A stretch of 64,000 bases of DNA, from contig CANMRT010000001.1 of NCBI GenBank assembly GCA_947500415.1, positions 956,982-1,020,981 on the forward strand, in the 5' to 3' direction. This DNA comes from an uncultured Roseicyclus sp. (GTDB lineage: Bacteria; Pseudomonadota; Alphaproteobacteria; Rhodobacterales; Rhodobacteraceae). A program made the position numbers and the translations under genes. Below, piece after piece: positions 2,627 through 21,568 of this stretch (positions are counted from its first letter, which is position 1; each line of letters begins with the position of its first letter). The notes beneath the pieces were generated by a model. It saw only the letters and a program-made list of their open reading frames with translations. It was not told the DNA's origin and ran no database searches.

Positions 2627-2637
2627 GCGCTTGGTCC

Positions 2638-3909: not shown

Positions 3910-3952
3910 GTGTTAACATGGATCTTAAGTGAAAAGAAACAGTAGGTTGCAG

Positions 3953-3971: not shown

Positions 3972-4000
3972 TGATTTCAGCTTGTGGCGGAGTGACCCAA

Positions 4001-4828: not shown

Positions 4829-4953
4829 GTGATCTTGCGTTGTGGTCCGGTTTTCGGTTACATTTGCAACTGAGCAAACGCTCCCCGCGGGCCGGGATCT
4901 TGTTTGTCGCGTGAAGGGCACGTTCCACGCGGCGCATAGATAGGAGGATCCCG

Positions 4954-6054: not shown

Positions 6055-7502
6055 CGCAGGGCCTCATTCACGGATTTGAGCGCAGGGTAGAGGGCGCGGT
6101 AACCGGCAAGGCGCGGGGCGAGAATTTCGGCGCGTGCCTGGTCCGGCGTGAACCAGCGGGACACCTCCGGCTTAACGGCGGCTTCTGCGACGGGGGTGCC
6201 GGTAGCGATTTGTGCCAGCCGCGCGGCGCCGAGTGCCGGACCTACATCGGCGGCTTCCGAGCGGCCAAGGGCCACGCCCATCACATCGGCGATCATCTGC
6301 AGCAGGAAATCGCTTCGGGTTCCACCGCCGATGGCCAACAGGCGTTCCGGCTTGGTGCCCGCCGCGGCCATGGCGGCCTGGGCGTCGGCGAAGGTAAAGG
6401 CGATGGCCTCCACCACTGCGCGCATGAGCGTGCCTTGGGTGGTGCCTTCGCTCAGGCCCCAAAATCCCGCGCGGATGTCGGCGTCGCCGTGCGGCGTGCG
6501 TTCCCCGGTCAGGTAGGGCAGGAACAAAGGGCCTGGTTGGGCGGCCTCGGCCTCAGCCAGCAACTCGGCAATCGGACGGTTGAGGAGTTCGGCAAGCCAC
6601 GCCATAGGCCGTGCGCCATTGAGCATCGCGGCCATCTGGAACCACAGATCAGGCAGGGTGTGGGCATAGGCGTGGATGCGGTTGGCGGGGTTCGGGCGGC
6701 AGGTTTCAGTGGTCACGAAAAGCTGGCCGGAGGTGCCGAGTGAGACAAAGCCGTCACCGGGCGCGACCGCGCCGATGCCGACCGCGCCTGCGGCACCGTC
6801 ACCGGCGCCAGTCGCGACCGGGATACCGGCGGGCAGGTCAAGCGCGTCGGCGGCCTCTGGGTGCAGTTGTCCGGCGATGGCGGAGCCGTCGAGAACGGCG
6901 GGCAGCCAGTTCGGGTCCGTGGCCGAGGCCGCGCAAAGCTTGTCGGACCATGTGCGGTTATGCTGATCGAACCAGCAGGTTCCGGCGGCGTCTGAAGGGT
7001 CAGTGACCAATGCGCCGTGCAGGAAGAGGCCCACGTAATCCTTGGGCAGCATGATATGGGCGATGCGGGCATGCTCTTCGGGCGCGTGTTTGGAAAGCCA
7101 CAGCAGCTTTGGGGCTGTGAAACCGGGCATTGGCGGCACACCGGCGATATGGCCGATGTCGGGCACCGCCGCCGCCATCTCAGCGCATTCTGCGCTGGCC
7201 CGGCTGTCGTTCCACAGGATGGCAGGCCGGATCGGTTGCTGAGCCTGATCCAACAGAACCGCACCGTGCATTTGCCCGGACAGACCAATGGCTGAGACCT
7301 GCGCGCGGTGGTTGGCGTCCAGATTATTTGCGGCGATCTTGACCGCATCGACCCAATCCTGCGGGTTTTGTTCGCTTCCGCCAGGAAAGGGCGTGCTCAG
7401 GCGCAACGGCGCATCGACGCTTGCCACGACCGCGCCGCTTTCATCAGCAAGACACAGTTTCACGGCGGAGGTGCCGATATCGATCCCGAGGGCGAGGGTC
7501 AT
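6051..7502 (-). CDS. xylB: Xylulokinase
   Basis: This FGGY-family kinase phosphorylates D-xylulose to xylulose 5-phosphate. The 483-residue protein starts with the phosphate-1 loop [11 protein letters not shown] and contains [13 protein letters not shown], typical of xylulokinases, the FGGY signature region near [12 protein letters not shown], and the adenosine-binding motif [17 protein letters not shown]. No xylose isomerase or sugar transporter lies next to it, so the substrate could also be another ketopentose made elsewhere in the genome. It is convergent with hppD and divergent from copA. Confidence 0.92.
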
Positions 7503-7607
7503 CGGGGGCGTCCTTTTTTGGCCAATGGTTCCAGCGTTTGCGGGGCTCAGTTAGGGCGATCCGAAGGTGGAAGGCAATTGGATAGGGCACATGTTCGACC
7601 TTGCCCC

Positions 7608-7642
7608 TTGACCTTCCAGTTGATGGAAGGTCCATGTAGAGT
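7608..7642 (+). promoter_or_regulatory. CueR-type copper-responsive promoter of copA
   Basis: A 21-bp dyad, ACCTTCC at 7611 and GGAAGGT ending at 7631, has the arm sequences of known CueR boxes. A -35-like TTGACC at 7608-7613 overlaps its left arm. A -10-like CATGTA follows after a 19-bp spacer, the over-long spacer typical of MerR-family promoters. It lies about 47 bp before the copA ATG and is the expected target of the cueR gene at 10208. Confidence 0.85.
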
Positions 7643-7688
7643 GGGCCGCGCGACGCTTACCCGCGGTGCAACCAATTGGACCATCCTG

Positions 7689-10193
7689 ATGACCCATCAC
7701 TCGTTGACGATATCTGGCATGAATTGTGCCTCCTGCGTGGGGCGGGTGGAGCGTGCCTTGGCGGAAGTGCCCGGCGTCGAGGATGTGCGTGTGAACCTCG
7801 CCACGGAACGGGCGGAATTCGATGGGGCTGATGCGGCGGCGATCAAAGCGGCGGAGGAAACCTTGCGTGACCTTGGCTATCCGGCCCGCACTGTGGATGT
7901 GACGTTGCGCGTGCAGGGCCTGTCATGCGCATCGTGTGTTGGCTGGGTGGAGCGGGCGCTTGCGGCGGCGCCTGGAGTCGTGAGTGCTTCCGTCAATCTT
8001 GCGTCTGAGACGGCTCAGGTGACGGTGTTGGAGGGGGTCCTTTCCCCCAGCGAAATCGCGCAGGTTTCCACTGCGGCAGGCTACGCGGCCAAGGTCGCGG
8101 GAGCGGATGCACCAGCCAATCAGTCGCAGGAAAAGGCCGCAGAAGCGGATGATGCCAAGCGCCGTATGTGGTGGGCGGCGGCGCTAACGCTTCCGGTGTT
8201 TCTGTTGGAGATGGGGTCGCATCTTATCCCGGCGTTGCATGGGTTTATCGGATCAACGATCGGCCATCAGGCCAGCTGGCTCATCCAATGGGCCCTGACC
8301 ACATTGGTCCTGATCGGCCCGGGCCGGGGGTTCTACACCAAAGGTATCCCGGCGCTTTTCCGCGGCGCGCCGGATATGAACAGCCTTGTCGCGGTGGGGA
8401 CATTCGCAGCCTATGGCTTCTCACTGGTGGCGACGTTTGCGCCCGGGTTGCTGCCTGAGATCGCGCGCGCGGTCTATTTTGAGGCAGCGGCGGTGATCGT
8501 CACGCTCATCCTTTTGGGCCGATGGCTGGAGGCGCGTGCCAAAGGGCGCACGGGGGCGGCAATTCAGCGGCTTGTTGGGCTGCAAGTGCGCCATGCCCGC
8601 GTAGAGCGAGACGGGGTGGCACTGGACGTGCCTTTGGATGAGGTCGTTGTTGGAGACGTGCTTATCGTGCGCCCCGGTGAGCGGATTGCTGTGGATGGGG
8701 AGGTCATCGACGGCACCTCCCACGTCGACGAAAGCATGATGTCGGGGGAGCCGATCCCGGTCGACAAGAGCGCCGGCGATCCGGTGACGGGCGGCACTGT
8801 CAACGGCGCGGGCGGTTTTCGGTTTCGCGCAACGCGGGTGGGGGCGGATACCGCGCTCGCCCAGATCATCCGCATGGTGCAGAACGCCCAAGGCGCGAAG
8901 CTGCCCATTCAGGCCTTGGTGGACCGCGTCACGATGTGGTTCGTGCCAGCGGTGATGGCGTTCGCGGCTTTGACGGTTCTCGTCTGGCTGGCGTTTGGCC
9001 CGGACCCCGCCTTTACGTTCGCATTGGTTGCGGGCGTGTCCGTCCTGATTATCGCATGCCCCTGTGCGATGGGGTTGGCCACGCCGACCTCGATCATGGT
9101 GGGCTCGGGCCGCGCGGCAGAGCTGGGCGTCTTGTTCCGCAAGGGCGAGGCGTTGCAACGGCTGAGCGACGTGGACGTGGTGGCCTTCGACAAGACCGGT
9201 ACGCTGACCGAAGGGCGCCCGGACCTGACGGAAATGGAGATGGCCGACGGGTTCAACCGGGCGAATGTTCTTTCGTTGGTTGCCGCCGTTGAGGTTCGGG
9301 CGGAGCACCCCGTGGCCGAGGCCATCGTGCGCGCGGCGCGCGCTGACGGGTTGCCACTCGCGGAGCCACCCGAATTTGAGGCGCTGCCCGGATATGGGGT
9401 GCGCGCAACGGTTTCCGGACACGAGGTGCTTGTTGGCGCAGATCGTTTGATGGAGCGTTTCGGGGTGGCGCCGGATGATCTGAAAGCGCGTGAAGCTGCG
9501 CTGGCTGCGCAGGGCAAAACGGTGCTGTTTGCGGCGATTGATGGGAAATTGGCGGCCTTGATTGCCGTCTCGGACCACGTGAAACCCTCCAGCGCTGCAG
9601 CTATTGAGGCGCTTCAAACGCGTGGCCTGCGGGTGGCGATGATCACCGGCGACAAGGAAGCGACCGCCAAGGCCATTGCGAAGGATCTGGGGATCGACAC
9701 CGTGATCGCTGGAGTTTTGCCGGACGGAAAGGTTGCGGCACTGGACCGTTTGCGCGCAAATGAACAGGTGCTGGCGTTTGTTGGCGACGGCATCAACGAT
9801 GCGCCCGCACTGGCCCATGCAGATGTTGGCATTGCGATTGGCACGGGCACGGATGTGGCGGTTGAGGCCGCAGATGTGGTGTTGATGTCCGGCGATCTTT
9901 CCGCTGTGGTGACGGCCCATGAGGTCTCTCGCCAGACCATGCGCAACATTCGCCAGAACCTTGGCTGGGCCTTTGCCTATAACACAGCACTGATCCCGGT
10001 GGCCGCTGGCGTTCTGTTCCCCGTCTTCGGCGTGCTCCTGTCACCGGTCTTTGCCGCCGGAGCGATGGCGCTGTCGTCTGTCTCGGTTCTAACCAATGCA
10101 CTGCGATTGCGGGGCATACGGCCAGCCTTGGGCGCGTCGTCACAACCACCGACGGCTGAGGCCGCGCGGAAGCAACCGATAGCCGCTGAATAA
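7689..10193 (+). CDS. copA: Copper-exporting P1B-type ATPase CopA
   Basis: This membrane pump expels cytoplasmic Cu(I) using ATP. The 834-residue protein has two N-terminal heavy-metal-associated domains, each with a CxxC site (GMNCASC near residue 12, GLSCASC near residue 80). Eight membrane segments are expected. The ion-path motif CPC is in [13 protein letters not shown], with the TGE-equivalent SGEPIP, the phosphorylation motif DKTGT, the HP motif (EHPVAEAI) and the hinge [10 protein letters not shown]. The ATG at 7689 is used because it directly precedes the first metal domain and follows the CueR promoter; the open frame extends further upstream into xylB. cueR follows after 14 bp. Confidence 0.95.
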
Positions 10194-10624: not shown

Positions 10625-10669
10625 GTGGAGGCGAGTACCGGAATCGAACCGGTGTACACGGATTTGCAA
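10625..10669. repeat. attL: 45-bp direct repeat, fragment of the tRNA-Cys 3' end
   Basis: These 45 bases are identical to 21494-21538, which is the 3' half of the intact tRNA-Cys. The copy here is only the 3' fragment and cannot fold as a full tRNA. It marks the left junction of an integrated element and is the original chromosomal 3' end of the tRNA gene. Sequence left of it is GC-rich chromosome and sequence right of it is AT-richer island DNA. Confidence 0.95.
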
Positions 10670-10729
10670 GGGGTATACATTGCTTAAATCACAATAAAAT
10701 CAAATAGTAAGGCGCAAGTTTTTGTAGGT

Positions 10730-10749
10730 GTGTGCAAAATTGTGCACAC
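10730..10749. repeat. Inverted repeat near the left end of the island
   Basis: GTGTGCA and TGCACAC form 7-bp perfect arms around a 6-bp centre, about 60 bp inside attL and about 105 bp before the methyltransferase start. It could be an operator for the methyltransferase or a recombination arm site. Function is inferred from position only. Confidence 0.4.
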
Positions 10750-10853
10750 AGCGCTGTTCTTTCCCGACGCCGTTTAACGATGCAAAGTGTTCTACGGATT
10801 GTATCTGACAGTGAGAGGCAATACTACAACTTGTAGAAAGTGAGACCGAAACT

Positions 10854-12071
10854 ATGCTGCAGCCGGATTTTTTCGAACAAGAGCCCCAGATTTGGGAGAA
10901 GTACCTTCCAATTGTTGAAGCTGCGGAGGTGCCAGACCAAAACGTAAACACCTGGGACATCCCCTACACCATTCGCCAGCTAGCTTACCTTACCCACTCA
11001 CATTTCAGATACTACGGGAAGTTTCCATCCGTAGTCGCAGGGCAGATCATCGACGAGTACTATGACAGAGCTACAGCCCGTCCCATCCTGGACAACTTTT
11101 GTGGCTCAGGGACGACGTTGGTTGAAGCGTCGCTGCGTGAGATACCCTCATTTGGGATCGATGTCAGTTGGCTAGCTGTAATGGCTTCGAAGGTAAAAAC
11201 CCAACACATAGAAACCAGCAAAGTTTCAGAACTATTAAGGGAGATCGAGCGCGCATACTCGCCCAGCCCTGTCGAAGAGCTCCATCAGCATGAAGAGAAA
11301 TGGTTTGAACCGTCTGCGGTTTCAGGTCTCAAGTCGATCCAAAGCATTTTGGGTGAAATGGATGCTACGAAGGAATCGGAATTTCTGATTTGCGCATTCC
11401 TTGCAATTATTCGGAGAACATCGCGTGCATTTGATGCTGAAGTTCGCCCTCATATCAACAAGGAAAAGCGCCAGAGAGATCCACTACAAGCATTCTCTAA
11501 GAAAGTTCGTGAGATGGTGGATAACCAACGAGCATATCAACTTCACACAAGTGATGGGATTAATCACAAGTGTCTCCTCGGAGGAGCAGAAGTAGCTTCT
11601 CAAGTCTATTCAGGTGAAAGCCCGTCCCTAATCATAAGCCACCCGCCGTATCTAAATGCATTCAATTACGCTCCCGTTTTTAAGCTTGAGTACCTTTGGG
11701 GAGAACCTTTCGAGGAGCGCTTTGTTGGCGAACGTAGTTACTATAAAAAAGAGATGATTGCGCATCCAGCAACTGAAACTAATTCCGAGAGATACTTAAA
11801 TCTACTTCGTGCCGCGTATAGCGAATCGTACAAAATGCAGAATGCGGGAGATTCTCTAGCCATTGTTATTGGCGATTGTACGCGGCACAAAAAGCTGGTC
11901 CCTGTATTGAATACAGTCACCAAAATAGTATCGGAGATTGGGTATACCCCAGTAGCAACAAATTATCGTACTACACACTATGGCACTGGGAAATATGCCT
12001 ACAATACTAGGGCAGATTACCACAACGACGAAAGCGCCAAAAAGGATGGGATTCTAGTATTTAAGAAATGA
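10854..12071 (+). CDS. SPPY-class DNA methyltransferase (amino-methylating)
   Basis: The 405-residue protein has the S-adenosylmethionine-binding motif NFCGSGTTLVEA at about residue 82 and the catalytic motif SHPPYLN at about residue 262. It also has the N-terminal YGKFPS region seen in methylases with motif order I then IV. The SxPPY motif implies methylation of an exocyclic amino group (N4-cytosine or N6-adenine) in DNA. The target sequence cannot be read from the gene. It converges on the nuclease-like gene at 12061, overlapping it by 11 bp at the 3' ends, which suggests a restriction-modification pair. Codon use is AT-richer than in chromosomal neighbours. Confidence 0.8.
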   Translation: MLQPDFFEQEPQIWEKYLPIVEAAEVPDQNVNTWDIPYTIRQLAYLTHSHFRYYGKFPSVVAGQIIDEYYDRATARPILDNFCGSGTTLVEASLREIPSFGIDVSWLAVMASKVKTQHIETSKVSELLREIERAYSPSPVEELHQHEEKWFEPSAVSGLKSIQSILGEMDATKESEFLICAFLAIIRRTSRAFDAEVRPHINKEKRQRDPLQAFSKKVREMVDNQRAYQLHTSDGINHKCLLGGAEVASQVYSGESPSLIISHPPYLNAFNYAPVFKLEYLWGEPFEERFVGERSYYKKEMIAHPATETNSERYLNLLRAAYSESYKMQNAGDSLAIVIGDCTRHKKLVPVLNTVTKIVSEIGYTPVATNYRTTHYGTGKYAYNTRADYHNDESAKKDGILVFKK

Positions 12072-13140
12072 CTAGTCTGCCGCTATCGTAAGTAATTGAT
12101 TTTTGGTTTCCATCTGCGATATCGATGAAAATCCTTCCAGCTTTCTTCGCAACAAGCCCGTCGATAATTGTCTTCACGTTCATATTATTCTCGTAGGTTT
12201 CTTTCGATATAAATGCATAAAAGTCAACGCCGAACTCCCGCTCAAATTCAGCAAACGCCTCAACAATTAGAGCATCAGGCACAACTAGGTTGTAATCTAT
12301 ACATGCTTGGATCATATTTCGACTTTTCTGCTCCCAATGTGCAAACTCTGTGATCACAAGAATACTAACCAAATCGCGTTCATCCGGGCGCAAATCGAAA
12401 GTGCCAAATCGACGTTTGCGAACATCAAGCGCAACAAAAGACGACTGCTTTGCTTTTTCAGGTGTTTGCGGACCACTAAGGCACTCATTAACAACACCTA
12501 CGAGAAATTCTTCTCTGATCTCATAGATATCAAGTATGCGACATGAGCGGAGAGTCTTGTCAAATTCTCGTAAGCTTTGCTCATTGCTGAGTACCGCAAA
12601 TTCACCATCTTCAAACACGGCTGCAATGATCCGATGATAAGGTTGTAAACTCTCCTTAAAGACAAGGTCTCCTGAATCGCTGTCCGTTATCACAACTTCA
12701 TTTTGATCAATGGTAATATAAACGCCAACTTTGCCGCGTTCGGTTTTTGTAAAACTAATTGGAACAGGTGTATCAAAAGGAACGATGAAGCCTTGTCCGT
12801 TCGGGTTTTTTGAAAACTTCTTCTTAAAGGATTGGTTTACAGTTTGCTCAACACCGACTTTTTTACACTCTACAAAACCAATTATGCTCTCTATATTCTT
12901 GATTTCACCGCCGTTTCTTTTTTCTGGCGGCACTTCGCATAAAACGAACTCGACCTTGTGTCCTGCGTCGGAGAAACCAAACAACTTAGGCTCAACGTTC
13001 ATACGTCGGTTCAACTCAGGATCGTGGTTGAGCGCTGAGTAAGTGACAAGTTCGAGCATATCGCCAACTTTCCTACCGACTTGGTGCCCCGCGTGACGAA
13101 ATTGCGAGATATACTTGAAAGTATCTGAAAGCATGTTCAC
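12061..13140 (-). CDS. PD-(D/E)XK-like protein, probable restriction endonuclease partner
   Basis: The 359-residue protein is not recognised by name. A candidate nuclease core lies in the N-terminal third: an acidic residue in KVEFVLCE, then a strand ending in IIGFVECKKVG, which fits the E-x-K part of PD-(D/E)XK nucleases. The C-terminal half has no motif I recognise. Convergence with the methyltransferase and overlap of the 3' ends support a restriction role, since the two genes of type II systems are often adjacent. It could instead be another nuclease or a non-catalytic DNA-binding protein. Confidence 0.6.
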   Translation of the reverse strand: MNMLSDTFKYISQFRHAGHQVGRKVGDMLELVTYSALNHDPELNRRMNVEPKLFGFSDAGHKVEFVLCEVPPEKRNGGEIKNIESIIGFVECKKVGVEQTVNQSFKKKFSKNPNGQGFIVPFDTPVPISFTKTERGKVGVYITIDQNEVVITDSDSGDLVFKESLQPYHRIIAAVFEDGEFAVLSNEQSLREFDKTLRSCRILDIYEIREEFLVGVVNECLSGPQTPEKAKQSSFVALDVRKRRFGTFDLRPDERDLVSILVITEFAHWEQKSRNMIQACIDYNLVVPDALIVEAFAEFEREFGVDFYAFISKETYENNMNVKTIIDGLVAKKAGRIFIDIADGNQKSITYDSGRLVIS

Positions 13141-13388
13141 TCCTTATGGCGTGAGTACCATGCCGCCGCATCTATGGCTATCTGCTAAGTGGTGTTTTGA
13201 CCAGGTTTTCCGCGGACCGCCGATCCGTGATTGTTTGACCGCCATAGCAATTGCGTGCGCTTTGGATCCTTACGCCAAATCCAACAACAATCCGTGGCTT
13301 TTTCCGTTTAGATCGGTGTAACGCATGGTAGCGCTGCTGATCTTGTGGCGTGTCAGCGTTAGAACCAAACGGACAGTGATGCCTCAAG

Positions 13389-13724
13389 TCAGCGCCGTGC
13401 CACCACCTTCGCCAAATCTGCGATCAGCGCCAGCTTGTCGTCATCGACTTCCAGCGTTGTCGCGCTTAGCTCACTAATGAGACGGCTACGCAGTTTTGAC
13501 GTGTTGTTCGGTTCGTAATCGAAAAAGAACTTAAGTTCTAAGTCGAGCGCGGTGGCGATGTCACTTAGCGTGTTGAAGTTCGGGGCTGTTTTGCCGCGCT
13601 CCAAGTTCGACACGGTTTCAAAGCTCATGTCGATAGCTTCAGCCAGCGCTGCTTGTGTCATACCACGCATCTTGCGTGATGCCTTAACGCGCGATCCAAT
13701 TTCCTGCTTCAAATCCATAGTCAT
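13389..13724 (-). CDS. Xre-family helix-turn-helix regulator
   Basis: The 111-residue protein carries a Cro/C1-type HTH at about residues 8-62 (GSRVKASRKMRGMTQAALAE, FETVSNLERGKTAP). A short C-terminal tail may be for dimerisation. It might be the controller of the neighbouring methyltransferase/nuclease pair or the repressor of the island's integrase. It lies 248 bp behind the nuclease gene on the same strand, and that gap shows no gene. A second ATG two codons downstream is possible. The ribosome site is weak. Confidence 0.85.
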   Translation of the reverse strand: MTMDLKQEIGSRVKASRKMRGMTQAALAEAIDMSFETVSNLERGKTAPNFNTLSDIATALDLELKFFFDYEPNNTSKLRSRLISELSATTLEVDDDKLALIADLAKVVARR

Positions 13725-13830
13725 ACACGGCTTGTAAATCGAAGCTTTGGGCTTGAGATCGAAGCAGAATGACCGTTAATTCAAAGAAACGTATTTTGAA
13801 GCCGTTTTTTGTGCGGTGTAGGAGGGAAAA

Positions 13831-14250
13831 TTGGATCGACGCTTATTTTTGATTGGAGCGCTTGCACTTAGTGCGTGTCAAGCAACCACAAACCCGCATC
13901 TCAGTGCGGGTGCTGAGCAACGCTTTGTGCCAGTTGAGAACGCGGCGGCGCTGATGGCAATCGTTGGCGGACGCACAGTTGAATACACAGAGCAGAGCAA
14001 CACTGGCGCGGGTATTAGACAAACGTTCAACAGGAACGGCACGACAGTCTACGGGGATCAAAGGCGAGTTTGGACCGTACAAAACGGTCGGTATTGTTCG
14101 AGCGTTGATCTGCAATCAGACCCAAGCACATGGTCTTGCTTCCAGCTTGACGTGAACGAAGCTGGGACAATCATTCGCTGGATCGACGTTGAGGGCACGC
14201 CACGAAACCCAGAACTAGGACCTGACACTGGGTATGGCAGGATACTCTAA
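13831..14250 (+). CDS. Small lipoprotein of unknown function
   Basis: The 139-residue protein starts at a TTG preceded by an AGGAGGG ribosome site. It has a short signal peptide ending in the lipobox LSAC (cysteine at residue 16), so it should be anchored to a membrane after lipidation. The mature part has no motif I recognise. It contains YTEQSNTGAGIRQTFNRNG and two further cysteines that could form a disulfide. It is the only exported cargo protein visible on the island. Confidence 0.7.
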   Translation: MDRRLFLIGALALSACQATTNPHLSAGAEQRFVPVENAAALMAIVGGRTVEYTEQSNTGAGIRQTFNRNGTTVYGDQRRVWTVQNGRYCSSVDLQSDPSTWSCFQLDVNEAGTIIRWIDVEGTPRNPELGPDTGYGRIL

Positions 14251-14921
14251 GGCGGCTACTGCTGCTTAGTGATATCAGTTGGTGAATTTGCGTCTCTGCT
14301 TCGCAGTTCCACAAGCGCCATACGTTTCTTTTCATCTTCGCTTCGCAAAGCTTCAAAGTCACTTCGGCGCATTTTCTTTGCCAGAACATGTCATTCGAAA
14401 ATGGAGTATGATTGCGTGGCTTTACCTAGAGCAAATAGATCAAGCCCTATTTCGGGCTTGATCTAAAGGCTAAGGCGTTACCCGTCGCTTTTTTTGGCTA
14501 CGCTCCCCAAACCATAAAGGAAGAGCAGGTTTTCCTATCATCTCTATTATTGGGACATCATACGCACATGGTGGGCTGGCGTAGCAAAGCTTGTTCCACC
14601 ACGTTGACGGGTACCGCACAGCGGCTTGTCATCCGTCTCACTCAATTCACGCATCTCTGCGCTACAACCATTCCGACAACAGTAAGCACAGTACTGCAAT
14701 GGCAGCGTGCTTTAGGCATCCTGCGCGCGATGGCAGGGTAGACTATTGAAGCGCATAACTGACGAATGCGTTTGCTTACCGTCTCACATCAGAACGGGTT
14801 TGCGGCACAATGATAACTGGCGTGCTAACCTTAAGGTCAGTTTTTGGTGCAGCCTTAGCTGTCTAATGTATTTAGCAAAGGGCGGCGATCAGGCTGCGAA
14901 ACGTTGGATTTTTTGCCCTTC
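14251..14921. other. Gene-free stretch of the island
   Basis: There is no convincing reading frame on either strand across about 670 bases. The only clear structure is the perfect hairpin at 14436-14465. The region lies between the lipoprotein and the catalytic-only recombinase and might be a remnant or hold a small RNA, but nothing specific can be shown. Confidence 0.5.
14436..14465. repeat. Perfect 12-bp-stem hairpin
   Basis: TAGATCAAGCCC and GGGCTTGATCTA flank a 6-base loop. There is no T-tract, so it is not a classic intrinsic terminator. It could be an operator or the stem of a small RNA. It sits inside a gene-free stretch. Confidence 0.5.
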
Positions 14922-15494
14922 TTAGATCAACTCAATTGCGTTGCGCATCTTGTTCTCGTTCAGCTCGATGTAGCGCATCGTTGTGTTCAGGTGTTTGTGT
15001 CGTGCAAGCGCTTGGATCACGCGCGCATTGATGCCCTTGTCTGCTAGCTCTGTCAAAAACTGCCGACGCCCGCTGTGCGAGCTTGCGCCTTTGACGCCCG
15101 CTAGCTTGTAGAAGCGGGCAAACAGGTTGACGATTGTTTGTGCGCTGAACCCGCCGCCCTTTGCGCTGAAGAAAAGCGAAGCATCTTGCTTTGCGATATG
15201 ACGGGGATGCTGCGCGGCGTATGCTGCCAGTGCCTTCGCCAATCGCTTGCTGACCAGCACCGTCGCGCTGTCGTCGCCTTTTGTCTGTGTTGCTGCCAGG
15301 TAGATCGTGTCGCGCACTTTGCCGCTGTCTTCAAACACGTCGCCCACTCGTAGCCCTGCGATCTCGCACGCGCGCAGCCCCGCAAAGAAGCTGAGCGCGA
15401 AGATAGCGTGGTTGCGGATGGGATAGCGATGGGCGTTGATGACTGCGGACACGCGCTTGCGTTCTGCGTCGGTTAAGAGCTTCGCTTGTTTCAT
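14922..15494 (-). CDS. Catalytic-domain-only tyrosine recombinase
   Basis: The 190-residue protein consists of just the catalytic domain of a phage-type integrase. The arginine of box I is in GLRACEIAGLRVGDV, the HxxR of box II is in SSHSGRRQF, followed by ALARHKHLNTT, and the nucleophile tyrosine is in MRYIELN. The N-terminal arm-binding and core-binding domains found in full-length integrases (300-450 residues) are missing. It could act as a short recombinase, similar in size to fimbrial switch recombinases, or be a truncated integrase. It is distinct from the frameshifted integrase at 19902-21316. Confidence 0.85.
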   Translation of the reverse strand: MKQAKLLTDAERKRVSAVINAHRYPIRNHAIFALSFFAGLRACEIAGLRVGDVFEDSGKVRDTIYLAATQTKGDDSATVLVSKRLAKALAAYAAQHPRHIAKQDASLFFSAKGGGFSAQTIVNLFARFYKLAGVKGASSHSGRRQFLTELADKGINARVIQALARHKHLNTTMRYIELNENKMRNAIELI

Positions 15495-15629
15495 GCATCA
15501 CCTCGAAATATGCGTTTTCGTTGTAATCCATTGTAAAGTCTAACATTCTAGCGGACGACCGATTTTAGCATAGTGCCTAAGTCGTTGAAATCGAACAGGC
15601 TTTGGCGAAGATGTTATGAACTGCTAATT

Positions 15630-15971
15630 CTATAACAATTTGCGCGGTGGCGCTGCGTCCAGGGCGACTTCTGTGATGCGATGCTGCTCAGCCAGAAAAG
15701 CTTTGAGCGCAGTATTCACTTCGTCCAGCCCGCGTATCTCTGCTTCCAGCAATCCGCCCATGCGCCTGTTGCTTAGTTTCAGCGTCGCCAGCTTTAGCTG
15801 GACACTGCGCATACAGTCGATTGCGGCGGTGACGCTGAAATCGCGCCCGCTGTGTTTGCGCTCGCCAAACCAACTTTTGCTTTTGCCGCACCAGTTCGTG
15901 CTGAACTCTTCGCCGTTCTGTACGAGATCATGCTCGACCAGTCGTTCGTATACCTGCTCTAAAAGTGTCAT
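15630..15971 (-). CDS. Hypothetical island protein, about 113 aa
   Basis: This is a small soluble protein beginning MTLLEQVYERLVEHDLV and containing FSTNWCGKSKSWFGERKH. It resembles short helix-turn-helix-like proteins I have seen annotated as DUF6626, but that link is uncertain. The ATG at 15971 is preferred because a GGGAG site precedes it. The frame could start five codons earlier. It is the last gene of a minus-strand run from about 17875 to 15630, and its ribosome site overlaps the stop of the preceding gene. Confidence 0.6.
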   Translation of the reverse strand: MTLLEQVYERLVEHDLVQNGEEFSTNWCGKSKSWFGERKHSGRDFSVTAAIDCMRSVQLKLATLKLSNRRMGGLLEAEIRGLDEVNTALKAFLAEQHRITEVALDAAPPRKLL

Positions 15972-15982
15972 GTATTGCTCCC

Positions 15983-16249
15983 TCAAAGCCCGCTGTACTT
16001 CGGCTTGCGGGGCTTGCTTGGCTCAGCGACGCGCACGGGCTTTACGGGGGGCTTTGGATCAAGCTCTGTTTCGCGTCGTTTCGCTTTGCGCCGCTGTGCT
16101 GCCGCGTCCGTCTCGTGCACCAACTGCCGCAAGTCGTTCACGCACTGCGCTGTTGCTGTCAGCATCGCTTGTGTTGTTGCAAGCTTCTGTGCGCGGGTCT
16201 GATCTGCAAAGCCCCTGCGCAGCGCGTTGATCGTTTCTGTCGTGTTCAT
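15983..16249 (-). CDS. Hypothetical basic island protein, 88 aa
   Basis: An 88-residue, strongly basic protein with an N-terminal helical region (MNTTETINALRRGF). Its C-terminal tail is rich in lysine, arginine and proline (KRRETELDPKPPVKPVR), suggesting nucleic-acid or protein binding. A GGGAG ribosome site precedes the ATG. It lies just downstream of a terminator and 11 bp before the next gene. No family was recognised. Confidence 0.6.
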   Translation of the reverse strand: MNTTETINALRRGFADQTRAQKLATTQAMLTATAQCVNDLRQLVHETDAAAQRRKAKRRETELDPKPPVKPVRVAEPSKPRKPKYSGL

Positions 16250-16305
16250 CCGTCGCTCCCTTAGAATTATTTATCATTTGGGAGCTAAGGCGTGGGGGAG
16301 GTAGA

Positions 16306-16321
16306 AACGTATTAACACGTT
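16306..16321. repeat. Near-perfect GTGTTAACAC palindrome copy 1
   Basis: This is one base different from a palindrome centred on GTTAAC (here ATTAAC), between the 88-residue gene and the terminator of the ATPase gene. It matches the inner 12 bases of the perfect copies at 17811 and 18223 except at that position. It is the only copy in an intergenic region. Confidence 0.5.
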
Positions 16322-16336
16322 TATTGCTGCCAAAAG

Positions 16337-16363
16337 AAAAGCCCCAGCATTGCTGGGGCTTTT
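16337..16363 (-). terminator. Rho-independent terminator of the AAA+ gene
   Basis: An 8-bp GC-rich stem (GCCCCAGC/GCTGGGGC, extended by A-T pairs) with a 3-base loop is followed on the minus strand by TTTTCTTTT. It lies 3 bases after the stop of the ATPase gene. The stem could also work in the other direction. Confidence 0.85.
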
Positions 16364-16366
16364 GGG

Positions 16367-17047
16367 TCATTTGATAAGGCGCAAATTGTTTGGACGCGGT
16401 GGCGGCGCGATGGGCTGTGCGAGCATCATCGCGTTTGGCACGATGTCACGCCAACTGCCGTCGCTGTTTCTTACAATTTCGTCGATCTCGTCGGCGCTGA
16501 GACAAAGCTGTTGATCGCGCAAGATTTGCTCGACACGGGCGCGTATGGACGTGGGATCGGCAGCATTGAAGTTGATCGTCACGCAACGGTTCAACATGCC
16601 TTTGTCAAGCTGCTCCAGATAGTTAGTGGTCAATACACTGACAGTGTTGGGCGTGTTGAGAAACACTTTGAGCGCGCGTTGTGCATCGCTGGTCAAGTTG
16701 TCCACTTCGTCAAAGATGAAGTAGTGAAGCGAGCTTTCGTTGAACGAAAGGGTGCTGGCAATGGCGTTACAGTTTTGCATGATCGATGTGATTTTTGCGA
16801 CCTTTTGGCATGACACAAAGTGTGGCTTGTTGTTGATTGCCTTGCCGCTTCGCGCTCTTTCGAACTCGTCGCAAAAAATGTGCGCATAAGTCGTTTTGCC
16901 AGTGCCATACGTCCCGTAGAAGCACAGGGCTGATTTGCCGCTTGCTGGGAACGGGAAGCTGCCAAGCATTAGCGCGGAGATTTGGTTTTGTGCTGTGCTG
17001 TTTGCAAAAACCATATCGAGAGTAGATTGGGGTGCAGTGTTTGTCAT
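16367..17047 (-). CDS. Clamp-loader-like AAA+ ATPase
   Basis: The 226-residue protein has a Walker A loop GTYGTGKTT near residue 44, Walker B FIFDEVDN near residue 117, a sensor-1 stretch LTTNYLEQ, and MLNRC. The last resembles the SRC arginine finger of RFC/DnaX-type clamp loaders such as T4 gp44. It lacks a DnaX C-terminal extension and the cysteine zinc site of bacterial gamma/tau. It may load a sliding clamp or remodel replication or recombination complexes for the element. It lies in a minus-strand run, 12 bp after the amber-interrupted gene, with an AGGAG site. Confidence 0.75.
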   Translation of the reverse strand: MTNTAPQSTLDMVFANSTAQNQISALMLGSFPFPASGKSALCFYGTYGTGKTTYAHIFCDEFERARSGKAINNKPHFVSCQKVAKITSIMQNCNAIASTLSFNESSLHYFIFDEVDNLTSDAQRALKVFLNTPNTVSVLTTNYLEQLDKGMLNRCVTINFNAADPTSIRARVEQILRDQQLCLSADEIDEIVRNSDGSWRDIVPNAMMLAQPIAPPPRPNNLRLIK

Positions 17048-17557
17048 CAGTCTTGCTCCTTATGCCGCCAACTTTTGAGCTTCGCCCGTTGCTTCGTGCT
17101 GCTGCTTGTTGAATGCGTCGTTCTTTTTGTCCGCAGCGCTTTCAGCCTTAGCGCGCCCCTTGGCTTTTTTCTTTGCCTTTTCGTTGTTGCTGTAGAGGTT
17201 TGACAGCGCGCCTGAGACGACTGTTTTGCCTGCAATGCGTTCGCCTACGTTTTCTTCAAAAACCACGTGCTTTACTTCGACGTTGCCGCGCGCGTTCAGC
17301 TTGCCAACCAGCACGACATACTGACCAATGTTGTCAGTGGCGCACTGCGCAATTTCTTCACATGCAATCTCAGTGATGTTTGCGGCGTTGTCAGCAAGCT
17401 CACGTCCCTCTGCAGCACGCTGCTTTGGCGTTTTTGTGTTCTTTGCAAGCGCAGCACGGATTTCTTCAATACCACCGCGCTCTTCGATGTAGCGCGCAAT
17501 CGCATTGCCCGTCCCTACGCCTTCCTGCGCTGCACAGCTCAAAACGCGCGCATATGA

Positions 17558-17566
17558 GTTAACACG
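17558..17566. repeat. Half copy of the GTGTTAACAC motif
   Basis: GTTAACACG, the right half of the 16-bp palindrome found at 17811 and 18223, lies inside the second part of the amber-split gene. Its left arm has diverged. Confidence 0.35.
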
Positions 17567-17810
17567 GCGACTGTCTGTATCGCTGTCGCTGAACACGTAC
17601 TTGGTGACAAGCTGGATGAAGCTGGGCTTTTTGTTCACGGGGATGTTGCGCTTTTGGACCTACTTCTGCAGCCACTCAAACTTCTCAGCGCTAACGTCAC
17701 CGCCATCCTTCGCGTCCAAGTAGACAGTGTAGATATTGCCCAACAATTCATACAGGCGCTGGTTCGCAGTTGCATAAAGCGTCGTCTGCCATTCTTCACG
17801 TTCTGCAAAA

Positions 17811-17826
17811 AGCGTGTTAACACGCT
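17811..17826. repeat. Perfect 16-bp palindrome AGCGTGTTAACACGCT, copy 2
   Basis: A perfect dyad with no centre gap, identical to 18223-18238 and lying 412 bp from it. It is inside the 5' part of the amber-split gene. The minus-strand reading encodes RVNTL there. Confidence 0.7.
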
Positions 17827-17990
17827 TCTGGAAAGCTGCGAGTGTGGTTTCTTTGATGTTCAAGTTCTTAGTCATTGCTTTTCCTTTCATTTTCGCAATC
17901 AAGCTCTTTATCAAGCTATGACACCTTTATACCTCAGGACTGCTATGCTAGATACGAACAGGCATTGAAGACTTCGATGATTGTTAACGC

Positions 17991-18743
17991 ATGAGACGTT
18001 TTTTTATTTCCAAGCACCCAACTTTTGGCAGGACGCCTGTTCCCGCAGCATTCAAGGTCGAAGCTTCGCCATATTACTGGTGGTGGTATGCGTTGACGCT
18101 GAATACGGACTACGCGGAAGCCTGCGCAAATGACGGGCTTGGATGCGAGCGCGTCTTCGAGGATTTTGGTGATGTGCGCTATGAAGGCAATCGCCACGCC
18201 GCATTCAAAGCTTGGTGGAACGAGCGTGTTAACACGCTTGAACAGCGCGGCGCTTATTTGTTTGCCGAACCTGTGTTGCGTGGCAAATCAGTTTCGATTG
18301 TGACGGACTTGGACATTGCGGCTGAGGCGATAGGAGCCGAAGAACGCATATTGGTGAACATACCGCTGGACGCGCAGCGCAAGCATATTGAATGGCGGCT
18401 GAACAACATTTTGAAGAAGCACTTGAAGCCAGAAGCCGCGCGGCTTGTAAAATCAGTTCGAAAAAGCAAGGCAAGATACAGCTTGGAAAAGCCCATCGTG
18501 CCAGATGCGCTGAAAAAGTGCTTCGATCTTTACGATGCGAAGCAAGCAGCGGCAGCGCAGGGAGAGAAGGTGAGTAACTTTGACTTGGCGAAGCGCGCAC
18601 GGATCAAAGTGCAAGAACGTGAAAAGGCTGACGAAGCAAGCTCGCCTGAAAGCCACCGTCGCACTGTGTCAGCCACTGTTTCCCGCTATGTCCGGCAGGC
18701 AGAGCGGATGATTGAACACGCGGCACAGGGGCAGTTTCCATAG
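17991..18743 (+). CDS. Hypothetical island protein, 250 aa
   Basis: This is a soluble basic protein. Its N-terminal part is rich in aromatic residues (SPYYWWWYALTLN), followed by a helical middle and a charged C-terminal half (ARLVKSVRKSKARY, RARIKVQEREKAD). No catalytic motif was recognised. Small-element genes with this kind of tryptophan/tyrosine-rich start occur in phage-like islands, but I cannot assign a family. It is divergent from the amber-split gene across about 115 bp and convergent with the next gene. A perfect GTGTTAACAC palindrome lies inside it. The ribosome site is weak. Confidence 0.6.
   Translation: MRRFFISKHPTFGRTPVPAAFKVEASPYYWWWYALTLNTDYAEACANDGLGCERVFEDFGDVRYEGNRHAAFKAWWNERVNTLEQRGAYLFAEPVLRGKSVSIVTDLDIAAEAIGAEERILVNIPLDAQRKHIEWRLNNILKKHLKPEAARLVKSVRKSKARYSLEKPIVPDALKKCFDLYDAKQAAAAQGEKVSNFDLAKRARIKVQEREKADEASSPESHRRTVSATVSRYVRQAERMIEHAAQGQFP
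18223..18238. repeat. Perfect 16-bp palindrome AGCGTGTTAACACGCT, copy 3
   Basis: Identical to 17811-17826. It is inside the 250-residue hypothetical gene, where the plus-strand reading encodes RVNTL, the same peptide as at the other perfect copy although the genes are unrelated and on opposite strands. Confidence 0.7.
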
Positions 18744-18745
18744 TG

Positions 18746-19345
18746 CTAGCCGCCCTGCCAAGCAGCGATTATTTCTTTGAACGGGGAATAATCGCCACGC
18801 TCAGTGCACTTTCCAACCAGTAGCTGAACGCGCACAACGGCATCGTTCAACGCTTCATCCAGTTTTGTTTCATCAATCGTATCGCCTTTTGGCTTGACCC
18901 ATGCGTTCGTTAACAAGCCATACGCCAAGAGCGTTATCGCGCCTTCGTCAATCCTTTCTGATTGCCTATCAAATCCAAAGCAAATGTCCCAATTTGTGGC
19001 GAGAGCAGAGCAGATTGCGGGACCAAATAGGTTTGTTGGGCGCATGGTGCACGTAAAGCTAACATGATCGTCCTGTGATCCATTGTCTTGTGCAGGGCTT
19101 AGATCAAAGCCAAGTATCCTTTGCACGTCTTCGTTCATGCTTCGATCCATGCCAAAAACGCGCTCTCCTGTCGGCGCAACCAAAGTCTTAAATCCAAAGC
19201 CGCTCATTTCCATTTCGTCTGAGACACTTGGATCAACGTCGTCCATGTTCGCAGTGCCAACAAATCCTAAATTAGCTTCGATTGCTGCATCTGAGGCGAT
19301 TGCAAGTTGCGCGATCCACAGCAGCTTTTCTTCTGTCGTTTGCAT
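18746..19345 (-). CDS. Hypothetical island protein, 199 aa
   Basis: A soluble acidic protein of unknown family, without a signal peptide or clear membrane segment. Its start (MQTTEEKLLWIAQLA) is helical, and the middle contains GFGFKTLVAPTGERVFGMD and VSFTCTMRP. An AGGAG site precedes the ATG. It ends 2 bases beyond the end of the convergent 250-residue gene. Composition is acidic and tryptophan-containing and gives no functional clue. Confidence 0.55.
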   Translation of the reverse strand: MQTTEEKLLWIAQLAIASDAAIEANLGFVGTANMDDVDPSVSDEMEMSGFGFKTLVAPTGERVFGMDRSMNEDVQRILGFDLSPAQDNGSQDDHVSFTCTMRPTNLFGPAICSALATNWDICFGFDRQSERIDEGAITLLAYGLLTNAWVKPKGDTIDETKLDEALNDAVVRVQLLVGKCTERGDYSPFKEIIAAWQGG

Positions 19346-19444
19346 TGGGCATCTGCTCCTTATGTGTCTGGAAACGCTTAAATTTTGGTCGTTTGCTTAC
19401 GTATTTGAGCACATACTTGCGATATGAACGCAAGGAGAAATGGT

Positions 19445-19867
19445 ATGACACAATTGGCGAAACTGACGGTAAAGACGGTGAAGCGGGCAAATGCGAAAGA
19501 CCCAACGCAACAACGCCGCGCAAAGCTGATCGCAGCCATCGAAGAGCAAGCGAAGGTGTTCGCTGCAAAGCTGAAAGGCGACGTGCATCAGGTGCGCGCA
19601 AAAAGTTGGGCGACAAACGAACACGGCGAAAAAGTTGCCATTGAGAAAATGCGGCAAGTACGCGCGTGGTTTTTTGAGCAGGACGGCGGCTGGTATGTGC
19701 AATGCAGATACGGCAGCAAAGTGCTGGACTTGGGCAAGGGCAACGCGGTGTTTGTGAAAGAACTGAAAGACGTGGAAGGTGCGCTGGAAGCGTTTTTGGT
19801 TGCAACGCAACAAGGCGAACTGGACGCTGCGATTGAGGCGGCGCTGAGCAAGCGCAAGGCAGCTTGA
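19445..19867 (+). CDS. Hypothetical island protein, DUF6641-like, 140 aa
   Basis: A basic N-terminal helix (MTQLAKLTVKTVKR) and charged middle are followed by a compact domain with WFFEQDGGWYVQCRYGSK. That pattern resembles the small phage and plasmid proteins grouped as DUF6641; the family link is tentative. The ATG at 19445 is preferred because GGAG lies 6-8 bases before it. The protein may bind nucleic acid. It lies between the 199-residue gene (divergent) and the integrase (convergent). Confidence 0.55.
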   Translation: MTQLAKLTVKTVKRANAKDPTQQRRAKLIAAIEEQAKVFAAKLKGDVHQVRAKSWATNEHGEKVAIEKMRQVRAWFFEQDGGWYVQCRYGSKVLDLGKGNAVFVKELKDVEGALEAFLVATQQGELDAAIEAALSKRKAA

Positions 19868-19901
19868 TCGACACTGGCACGGGCGCGTTTTGCAGCGCCC
19901 G

Positions 19902-21316
19902 CTACCCGTTCAAAATCAGCATTAGCGTGCTAGCGTTTATTTTTTCAGCGCGCTTTGCATCCAGCGCTTTCATCGCAATCTCTTCCGTCACAACATAACC
20001 GTCGCGCCCAACGCCAAGTGCCGCCAAAAGTGCCTCGTCCTCAAGCAGTCCGTCCGCGTGCATCGCAAAAGCGGCGTCAACGACGCTTTGTGCGCCCGCT
20101 ACAGCGTCCTTAGCTTTTTCCGCGCGCATGTTCCGCCCGCTGTGCAGTTCCGCGTTTAGCAGCGGGCTATATTTGCTGTAATGTTTGTCGATCATCGCTG
20201 TGCTGTTGCCCAGTTGCTTGCTGAGCGCGTGCGTCGTGATCCCGCGCTTCAAGTCGCGCGTCGCGTAGTAGTGCCGCAAACTGTACAGCGTGCGCTCTTT
20301 GCCATCTGCGCCTGTTTTCAAATCCATCACGTCCAGCAGTGCATTAAATGCGCGGTTTAAGCTTGCAATATTGGCAACGTCGCCAAGTCGTGTCGCAAAT
20401 ACGAACTCGTCGCTGCGTGCTGCGATCAATTCGTCAAATGTCCCGTCTTGTAGCTTGGATTCAACTTGCGCTGTCTGTCTAAGTAGCCTTCAACAGTGTC
20501 CCGCGCCACAGCGCTGCGTTTACGTGTTTTCCCGTCCACGTTCACCACCAAGTAGCGTTCGTCGCCTTTGTCCTGCCATTCAACGTTGCGCCATCGCAGC
20601 CCAAGCGCTTCTGTGCCGTGCCGCACCCCAGTGTTCGCTAAAAACAAGACGTAGTTGCGCAGCACTTCCCGTGTCGCTGCTGCCATGGTGTTCTTCGTCT
20701 TTTTGTGCCAGGTGCGCAGCGCGGTGTAGATCTTCTTGTACTCTGCGTCCGTAAAGCTGCCCCTGCTTTCGCTTTTGACGCCCTTGTTTAGCAGGGTGGG
20801 GCGCATTGATTTAACGAGCCAGCTTTGTAGCTCCGCTTCATCTAGCACCCTGTTCAGCGCAGCATTGTGGTTATTGATGCCGCTTTGCGAGAACGGTTTT
20901 TTGTTTTGCTGCGTGCGCCAGGCGTCAAATTCGACCAAGCCCTTGTAGTCAATCTTGTCTACGTCCGTATCGCCAAAAAACGGTATCAGCCAGAGACGCA
21001 GCGCTGAGATGTAGTCCTTGTACGCTTGCTTACCTGTACCGCTCTCCAAAGTGTCCTGCATACGTTTGATGGCGTATTCTGCGACGTGCTTGAACTTGCG
21101 GGTTTGGGCGGGAAGGTTGTTTTTGATGCGTGCTTGCGTGTTGTAGTAAAGTTCAAGCGCACGTTCCCGGGCTTCTTCCAAGTCGTCCGTCTTCGTGCTT
21201 TTCACAATGCGCTTGCCGTTGTCCAACGTCAGCCGTGCATACCAATTCTCGCTGTTCGCCCGCTTATCCAGCTTCAGCTTCTTGTGCACATTTACTGTCG
21301 TTGTGCCGTAGCTCAT
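19902..21316 (-). pseudogene. int: Tyrosine-recombinase integrase of the island, frameshifted
   Basis: Two overlapping frames together make one integrase of about 470 residues. The first (21316-20426) has an N-terminal arm/core-binding region and box I arginine (NTGVRHGTEALGLRWRNVEW). The second has the box II HxxR (YSLRHYYATRD) and the tyrosine (MIDKHYSKY). The catalytic residues are thus split and neither part alone can work. The frames join at about 20471-20480, where the minus strand reads AGACAGACAG. Adding one ACAG unit restores a continuous frame (GYLDRQ then TAQVESKL). The gene sits 177 bp inside the intact tRNA-Cys, as expected for the integrase that formed the island. Confidence 0.85.
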
Positions 21317-21346
21317 TTCATCATGCTGCCCGCATCTGTCTGTTAA

Positions 21347-21359
21347 ACATACAGTATGT
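21347..21359. promoter_or_regulatory. 13-bp palindrome upstream of int, candidate operator
   Basis: ACATAC and GTATGT flank a single A, 31 bp upstream of the integrase start codon. The position suits repression of int, possibly by the island's Xre protein. Function is inferred. Confidence 0.4.
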
Positions 21360-21399
21360 GAAAACAGACGGACTTTGTAGCGGAAAACTGGGTGCGGAC

Positions 21400-21417
21400 T
21401 GTGTACGATTTGTGTAC
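21400..21417. repeat. Paired TGTGTAC direct repeats near attR
   Basis: Two copies of TGTGTAC start 11 bp apart (21400 and 21411), one helical turn, about 80 bp inside the right attachment site. The spacing and place would suit arm-type integrase binding sites. Confidence 0.35.
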
Positions 21418-21436
21418 AGACGCAAAAACAAAAAGC

Positions 21437-21462
21437 AAAATCGGCTCAAAAAGCCGATTTTT
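21437..21462 (-). terminator. Rho-independent terminator downstream of tRNA-Cys
   Basis: AAAATCGGCT and AGCCGATTTT form a 10-bp stem with a 5-base CAAAA loop, with A and T tracts on either side so it can act in both directions. On the minus strand it lies about 30 bp beyond the tRNA-Cys 3' end and is supplied by island DNA. Confidence 0.8.
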
Positions 21463-21493
21463 GTATGTCTAGCCACTATATGTTGTGGAACCA

Positions 21494-21538
21494 GTGGAGG
21501 CGAGTACCGGAATCGAACCGGTGTACACGGATTTGCAA
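21494..21538. repeat. attR: 45-bp direct repeat
   Basis: Identical to 10625-10669. It forms the 3' half of the functional tRNA-Cys, so the island restored the tRNA gene when it integrated. Confidence 0.95.
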
Positions 21539-21568
21539 TCCGCTGCGTAACCACTCCGCCAACTCGCC
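21495..21568 (-). tRNA. tRNA-Cys (GCA)
   Basis: A 74-base tRNA gene with encoded CCA. The acceptor stem GGCGAGT pairs with ACTCGCC, the anticodon loop reads TTGCAAA with anticodon GCA, and the T arm is GGTTCGAATCC. The gene is the integration target of the 10.9-kb island. Its 3' half is attR and a duplicate 3' fragment remains at 10625-10669. Confidence 0.97.

Follow-up and report, generated by a model that had tools for sequence, protein, structure and literature searches.

Integrative mobilisable elements (IMEs) of the SGI1 group and of streptococci insert at specific sites between matched att repeats; some carry replication genes, and type II restriction-modification (R-M) systems are found among their maintenance genes, as described in excerpts of PMC5704250. 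Among phage satellites, the PICMIs are defined by int, alpA and prim lying next to fis (excerpts of PMC10803314). Here we analyse an island inserted at a tRNA-Cys gene within a 64,000-nucleotide stretch of DNA, called the window throughout, from an uncultured Roseicyclus sp. Like the IMEs of those excerpts, it combines site-specific integration, matched att repeats, candidate replication genes besides an integrase and a predicted type II R-M pair. It differs in having no recognised relaxase, and its candidate replication module, which consists of an ATPase and the protein families p250 and c5, with or without an HUH-type protein, does not correspond to any Rep type that the excerpts of PMC5704250 name. 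In its workings the island would be comparable to an IME with replication genes of its own or to a minimal satellite with a defence slot. We consider it likely, at a probability of roughly two in three, that the island represents a family of integrative mobile elements, found in Rhodobacteraceae and related Proteobacteria, with their own replication module and exchangeable cargo, and that the window copy is itself probably stuck.

The island is a site-specific insertion, as its att repeats, its tRNA-Cys target and the empty sites of two congeneric genomes (G001 and G005) establish. The two identical 45-bp att copies lie 10,869 bp apart from start to start. When up to 3 mismatches are allowed, the genome of 4,012,295 bases contains a 22-nt core of these repeats only twice, and a reversed-pattern control gave 0. 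At the empty sites, a MerR-type gene is followed after 14 or 16 nt by tRNA-Cys and then by a gene that we name mechanosensitive-channel-like from its sequence. The island lies between the same neighbours, with 24 nt from the MerR-type gene to the att copy. Its guanine-plus-cytosine (GC) content per 1 kb is 0.42–0.55 (ten intervals, 11001 to 21000), against 0.59–0.68 for the ten intervals from 1 to 10000. An integrase, interrupted in this copy, accompanies these features, and an Rfam scan returned nothing besides tRNA. An earlier note on this DNA had proposed a compact mobile island between perfect 45-bp att repeats at tRNA-Cys; the coordinates of both repeats hold, and the base composition and empty sites confirm a real insertion. 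The Cu-ATPase and MerR genes to the left of the island were considered as part of a tandem element and rejected, because the MerR gene adjoins tRNA-Cys at the empty sites and the genome holds no third att core.

Relatives of the island occur in other genomes. With the window's own genome counted, 3 of 101 related genomes have p250, 2 of 394 gave the ATPase at an E value of 1e-15, and 21 of 388 family genomes have DUF6641. When 84,980 species genomes were scanned, 58 pattern matches to p250 turned up, 25 of them confirmed by alignment and mostly in Rhodobacteraceae; the other hosts are Novosphingobium, a metagenome-assembled genome (MAG) labelled Asaia, a MAG labelled Comamonas and two gammaproteobacterial MAGs. 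The sequences nearest to the window's p250 belong to other lineages: they are 48% (G200) and 40% (G289) identical to it, with 41 and 38% for two gammaproteobacterial MAGs. Elements bounded by matched repeats lie at tRNA-Cys in G004 (10.6 kb), G341 (13.9 and 30.7 kb, in tandem) and G057 (20.9 kb), at tRNA-Phe in G422 (27.5 kb) and G200 (20.3 kb), and in G228 (9.6 kb, 19-bp repeat); no repeat longer than 17 bp was found at the loci G427 a, G427 b, G057 a, G341 contig 2 and G341 b. These seven relatives in six genomes and the window copy make eight att-bounded elements, all of which have an integrase (8/8) and a short tyrosine recombinase (8/8). Seven have p250, seven c5, seven DUF6641, six the ATPase and four the HUH-type protein, and p250, a divergent c5, DUF6641, the short recombinase and the integrase occur together in six of the eight, window included.

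A wider set comprises 34 loci with p250 at a profile E value below 1e-15, all unique once six doubly taken places and the weak L051 (4e-8) are dropped; 27 of them extend at least 2.6 kb upstream. A divergent c5 is present in 20 of these 27 and the ATPase likewise in 20, the two being co-directional in 19. Among the 19 p250 loci of at least 19 kb, DUF6641 is present in 15, DUF6626 in 16, the short recombinase in 14, the integrase in 12 and the HUH-type protein in 9; the integrase and the recombinase are present in at least these numbers, as the loci end, and the counts are biased, with that of DUF6641 inflated, because the loci were partly selected by DUF6641 or p250. Open reading frames (ORFs) of relatives were called greedily, and small genes may be missed or misplaced. 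The earlier note had suggested a look at tRNA-Cys loci, and those of relatives (G004, G341 and G057) do hold elements that share the island's genes; homologues confined to fixed genes lacking att repeats, which the note had named as a refutation, were not what was seen. No description of the family, of DUF6641 or of DUF6626 was found in searches of an open-licence library; the family is apparently not yet described, which agrees with that note's expectation.

The sister element in G004, a genome of the same genus, occupies the same tRNA-Cys and offers the most informative comparison. By blastn it matches the window at 90.9% over 13353-16291, 91.7% over 19424-19903 and 92.9% over 19902-21568, with no match for window positions 10670-13352 and 16292-19423. 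Its p250 is 25% identical to that of the window. By this alignment two cassettes, the cargo and the p250/c5 module, were exchanged. The 14.6 kb of chromosomal flank compared gave one match, of 385 bp at 73.8%. The element is therefore closer between the two strains than this sole matching piece of flank, which argues for recent transfer of the 91–93% identical backbone.

The candidate replication module is an unfamiliar part of the island. Its clamp-loader-like ATPase, recognised as such in the earlier note, is supported by phrog_168 (8e-23) and matches a solved subunit 3 of Replication factor C (RFC) at 1e-10. All 24 aligned sequences share the Walker A glycine and lysine, the Walker B glutamate, the sensor-1 TN, an arginine at the arginine-finger position and another at the sensor-2 position; the window keeps the Walker B aspartate, for which several relatives have N or E. 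The match to the RFC small-subunit model ends at residue 203 of 226 and at model position 202 of 322, so that the protein is predicted to have the AAA+ features of a small subunit and no room for the C-terminal collar domain of clamp loaders. Members clear of contig ends are 204–299 residues long by our own ORF calls, in which start codons are uncertain. The clamp-loader ATPase gp44 of phage T4 is comparable to RFC and DnaX. The island ATPase shares with RFC and DnaX the AAA+ core, sensor 1 and the arginine-finger and sensor-2 positions, but it is shorter, predicted to be collar-less and encoded beside c5.

Palindromic sites accompany these genes. The window has three sites of the palindrome AAGCGTGTTAACACGCTT, against 0.02 expected, and all lie within the exchanged module. 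A different palindrome, CAAACACTGTGTTTG, is present in 3–4 copies directly 3' of p250 in L012, L080 and L081; the arrays of L080 and L081 are not independent, since these two loci look closely related. In a palindrome-pair test of 20 modules, those of the window, L012, L013, L071 and L081 exceeded all 40 shuffles at one length or more. Some relatives also encode an HUH-type protein. Replication initiators of the HUH type have an HUH motif followed by a tyrosine. The same order is seen in the alignment of nine relatives, where FGTLKF- and FHxHF-like motifs precede a tyrosine and H118, H120 and Y168 are invariant (9/9). Among six members compared with PHROGs, one divergent member hits the 'replication initiation protein' family phrog_3584 at 1.4e-5. 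We infer that the HUH-type protein is a replication initiator.

The neighbourhood of p250 varies among relatives. One p250 lies near a replication protein of the CyRepA1/Herpes_ori_bp type on a Bradyrhizobium plasmid. The six proteins neighbouring p250 in L085, L089, L073 and L052 have no Pfam family (6/6); replication-type proteins in L061 and L007 did match. At L085:6672-9844 and L089:6438-9724, two proteins of about 436 and 592–658 residues without a Pfam match take the place of c5 and the ATPase beside p250 and DUF6641. At L061:14395-18050 (G101), an HUH-like protein and a 1019-residue Herpes_ori_bp-type protein stand with the short recombinase, DUF6641 and the integrase at tRNA-Phe; this may be another, third type of replication module. 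A clamp-loader-like frame is also found in an unannotated 6.8-kb 'Bacteriophage sp.' record (L008, MT839880.1).

In intact members of the family, the integrase would excise the element as a circle at the att site, as the att repeats and empty sites suggest. Judging by its content, the p250/c5/ATPase module, together with palindromic sites and, in many relatives, an HUH-type Rep, would copy this circle, and it may do so by recruiting the host's polymerase and sliding clamp to the origin of the element. The short recombinase could resolve multimers of the circle or process it for transfer. Resolution is the better reading, because the nearest solved relatives of this protein are Xer proteins and, of 332 plasmid records with a relative, 186 are typed non-mobilizable, 138 mobilizable and 8 conjugative. 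The R-M cargo, in a slot beside the distal att, would shield the host from phage and make loss of the element costly. A more specific proposal is that islands across classes replicate their circle by a private collar-less clamp-loader ATPase with p250 and c5, and that this module, palindromic origin sites included, is exchanged as a cassette independently of integrase and R-M. We regard this proposal as tentative and somewhat unlikely.

Several observations weigh against the reading of the family as mobile elements with their own replication module. Excision and replication are inferred from att repeats, empty sites and gene content. The sister in G004 is without the ATPase, and the att-bounded G341 element 1, which has an integrase, short recombinase, DUF6641 and HUH-type protein, is without p250, c5 and ATPase, so the module is not universal. 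The G057 element is without DUF6641 and HUH-type protein, and the divergent c5 is missing from 7 of the 27 p250 loci with room for it. The predicted models of p250 and c5 (the latter with a predicted local distance difference test score, pLDDT, of 88.8) have no significant fold match in the PDB, and p250 has none among viral models either. The palindrome excess is clear in just 5 of 20 modules; L064 and L068 beat 39 of 40 shuffles, and the rest are less distinct. The window copy has no HUH-type protein. Where that protein occurs, it has no Pfam match (E value 0.05; 0.01 for the L048 member) and no PDB profile match, and of the other five members compared with PHROGs, two hit unknown-function families alone and three hit none, which makes the HUH label a putative one. 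The cargo is sometimes not defence-related, as with a beta-eliminating lyase in G228 and an LGT/redoxin protein in G341 element 1.

The earlier note had judged that the island looks like a satellite or mobilisable element. Neither reading is borne out: no packaging gene and no relaxase is recognised, and the search of IMG/VR, though weak, was negative. A phage satellite comparable to the P4-like, PICI and PICMI elements would be packaged by a helper phage, replicate on its own upon induction and protect its host by R-M. The size of about 10 kb, the tRNA site and the pairing of a replication-like module with a defence-cargo slot all suit such an element, and small size, a replication-like module and an end-located defence slot are common to the island and phage satellites such as PICMI, PICI, P4-like elements and cf-PICI. 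PICMIs, too, are without capsid-remodelling genes and some have type I or II R-M, according to excerpts of PMC10803314. Two congeners carry elements of about 10 kb with terminase and head or portal genes at the same tRNA-Cys att core, and the ATPase has partial matches (31–37% identical) to clamp loaders in 6 phage records. Compared with PICMIs as the excerpts define them, however, the island has no alpA, prim or packaging gene, lies at tRNA-Cys rather than fis and showed no phage link. No AlpA, primase, terminase or capsid family appears in the Pfam hits (E value up to 0.1) of the 15 of 15 window proteins compared, and no head or packaging gene of the cf-PICI or prophage kind was found with PHROGs (10 proteins) or Pfam (15). 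By these marks it is neither a PICMI nor a capsid-forming satellite. Scans for p250, DUF6641 and HUH-type proteins gave no relatives in IMG/VR or phage records; the IMG/VR negative is weak because IMG/VR is selected by viral hallmark genes. Members of the family reach 20–31 kb. On balance we judge a phage satellite unlikely.

We find it quite unlikely that the island is an integrative mobilisable element whose short recombinase, as a MobK/TcpM/MpsA-like relaxase, nicks an oriT so that the element rides another's conjugation channel. Pfam recognises no relaxase among the 15 of 15 window proteins, and the short recombinase does have the domain layout of tyrosine-recombinase-like relaxases, the three known examples of which are without a core-binding domain (excerpts of PMC9299015 and PMC8152469). 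The catalytic tyrosine is Y179 in MobK as described in these excerpts and Y175 here, and all 21 aligned members keep the complete catalytic set unchanged. This likeness to MobK, TcpM and MpsA is drawn from published descriptions, and the oriT is hypothetical. The short recombinase is nearest by sequence to proteins of the XerC/XerD/XerA type, and its plasmid-borne relatives lie mostly on plasmids typed non-mobilizable. A plasmid origin is unsupported: plasmid records gave one match to p250, one to DUF6641 and none (0) to the ATPase, the HUH-type protein or c5. On an Azospirillum plasmid, an integrase, DUF6641 and a short recombinase fall within 16 kb and have a CHAT-domain protein as their neighbour.

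Whether the window copy has become a fixed, decaying island kept for its R-M genes is in our estimate an even question, and such decay would be compatible with a family of mobile elements. The integrase does lie at the tRNA side, as the earlier note said, but it is not a single gene: its two overlapping pieces (19902-20429 and 20426-21316) are in different frames. In the sister and several other relatives it is in one frame, and the sister's is 97% identical to that of the window. The 84- and 192-residue ORFs align to the first and second parts of the c5 family, parted by one in-frame stop. We rejected them as two genes because relatives have one c5 frame; the G289 relative has a single open frame across the region, and whole members are roughly 270 residues long, mostly 244–320 by greedy ORF calls. 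With integrase and c5 genes both interrupted, the window copy is probably immobile now, barring assembly errors, and intact copies are seen in other genomes. The relative in G109 is likewise broken; its locus, L055:450-2318, has a DUF6641 gene with two stops and a split integrase. Against decay stand the perfect att repeats and the recent transfer argued from the backbone at 91–93% and the flank piece at 74%, and both lesions may be assembly errors. These two lesions, the short recombinase and the assignment of the XRE gene to the backbone rather than to the R-M pair were absent from the earlier note.

The cargo slot of the window holds a predicted type II R-M system, with an adjacent methyltransferase and restriction endonuclease of matching families. 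The R-M-like pair of the earlier note is thus recognised by PADLOC (methyltransferase 8e-111, endonuclease 2e-101). The methyltransferase also has a Pfam match to N6_N4_Mtase (1.4e-5), slightly under the Pfam cut-off; the endonuclease gene is convergent with it and has no Pfam family. The XRE-type gene was considered as a controller specific to this pair and rejected, because it is 97% identical in the sister, which has another R-M system. For relatives, PADLOC was applied to 10 chosen proteins from five loci, with a hit counted at 1e-5 and G057, G200 and G341 element 2 left out, and four of the five loci gave a match. The sister (L011) has a type II R-M system that differs from the window's (endonuclease 1.6e-83, methyltransferase 6.3e-89), L097 (G422) a type III R-M system with an HKD/Snf2 protein, and the G427 loci DrmD (L042) and a type I methyltransferase (L043), element ends not being located in G427. 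L092 (G341 element 1) gave no PADLOC match, its 1173-residue protein included. R-M in the cargo slot is common but not universal, given these results and the beta-eliminating lyase of G228.

Two further arrangements were seen among relatives. At G341:C1:453800-498378, two family elements lie in tandem at tRNA-Cys with three att copies, and the second has export and oxidase-like cargo by eye. At G228:C8:25185-51532, three copies of a 24-bp/19-bp repeat delimit two stretches, the 9.6-kb element and a metabolic-looking cluster of 16.7 kb that contains no genes of the family.

The remaining genes of the island are listed with the others in Table 1. In the short recombinase, R41, K72, H140, R143, H166 and Y175 are invariant across the 21 aligned members. 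Its gene and that of the integrase are 4.4 kb apart and do not share an operon. Two tyrosine recombinases, IntA and IntB, are also characteristic of the elements termed SEs. These are gammaproteobacterial, with a median size of 15.7 kb and an intA-tfp-intB operon at the left end (PMC10214605). The island resembles these SEs in having more than one recombinase per element, but its recombinases form no operon and its hosts are mainly Alphaproteobacteria. It differs from SEs by this gene order; tfp and srap homology was not searched. The DUF6641-like protein, so named in the earlier note, is weak in Pfam (0.003, with 18 bits where the cut-off is 27) and is backed by phrog_31551. The 139-residue lipoprotein-like ORF has no Pfam family and a tblastn match in the sister alone among the relatives compared. 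For the 199-residue ORF, tblastn of relatives' loci matched nothing but the window's own place (L062). PHROGs and Pfam were uninformative on the small unknown ORFs. As the earlier note had also stated, no virion or conjugation gene is recognisable: neither Pfam, with all 15 listed proteins, nor PHROGs, with 10, gave a hit to a family of relaxases, terminases or secretion, head or tail proteins.

Table 1. Features of the tRNA-Cys island, with positions in the window
Feature	Positions	Strand	Basis or remark
Distal att repeat	10625..10669		45 bp, identical to tRNA-side copy
Cargo: predicted type II DNA methyltransferase, 405 aa	10854..12071	+	PADLOC PDLC03239, 7.9e-111
Cargo: predicted type II restriction endonuclease, 359 aa	12061..13140	-	PADLOC PDLC03437, 1.7e-101
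XRE-type regulator, 111 aa	13389..13724	-	Pfam HTH_3, 7e-15; backbone; 97% identical in sister
Lipoprotein-like ORF, 139 aa	13831..14250	+	96% identity in L011 (sister)
Short tyrosine recombinase, 190 aa	14922..15494	-	Pfam Phage_integrase, 2.5e-23; catalytic domain only
DUF6626 protein, 118 aa	15630..15986	-	Pfam, 5.6e-9
88-aa ORF	15983..16249	-	Common to sister (95%)
Exchangeable module (p250, c5, ATPase, 199-aa ORF, palindromes)	16292..19423		blastn blank in sister between its 91% and 92% blocks
Palindrome AAACGTATTAACACGTTT	16305..16322		3 mismatches to the 18-bp site
Clamp-loader-like AAA+ ATPase, 226 aa	16367..17047	-	phrog_168, 7.9e-23; RFC small subunit, 5e-18
c5, C-terminal part, 192 aa	17060..17638	-	c5 profile, 2e-12; past in-frame stop
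c5, N-terminal part, 84 aa	17660..17914	-	c5 profile, 8e-9; ends at in-frame stop
Perfect 18-bp palindrome AAGCGTGTTAACACGCTT	17810..17827		In c5 start region
p250, all-helical, family marker	17991..18743	+	Divergent from c5; model pLDDT 89.1
Palindrome copy, 1 mismatch	18222..18239		In p250 start region
199-aa ORF, no family	18746..19345	-	Within exchangeable module
DUF6641-like protein, 147 aa	19424..19867	+	phrog_31551, 2.6e-18
Integrase, C-terminal piece	19902..20429	-	Overlaps N-terminal piece, different frame
Integrase, N-terminal piece	20426..21316	-	Separate frame from C-terminal piece
tRNA-side att repeat	21494..21538		45 bp, exact copy of distal repeat
tRNA-Cys(gca), insertion target, left intact	21495..21568	-	Second att copy inside it

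Other elements occupy the same site. In two genomes of the same genus, elements of about 10 kb at L145:1037-10744 (G008) and L147:1405-11492 (G009) have the same tRNA-Cys att core and another integrase, of 349 residues. Both have a terminase large subunit, with a major head protein in L145 and a portal-like protein in L147, and a scan of 10 of their proteins (7 and 3) revealed no tail gene. From this gene content they look like capsid-forming satellites. The same att core also bounds G008:C1:2293700-2309300 (about 15.5 kb) and G002:C1:1231042-1265654 (about 34.5 kb), and neither interval has a tblastn match to island proteins at 1e-3. Elsewhere in the window, a tRNA-Leu(taa) at 37845-37931 is followed by about 22 kb (to 60000) of lower GC content (0.52–0.60), possibly a second mobile region.

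Members of the family share one tRNA-Cys site with elements that carry head and packaging genes, so that competition for the site can be studied. The type of element described here is known, and its replication-like module is unfamiliar. A collar-less clamp-loader-like ATPase encoded with two families without fold relatives would offer a natural case that can be tested in mobile-element replication. The family may thus provide a recognisable backbone for islands that move R-M and other cargo among Rhodobacteraceae, and perhaps further.

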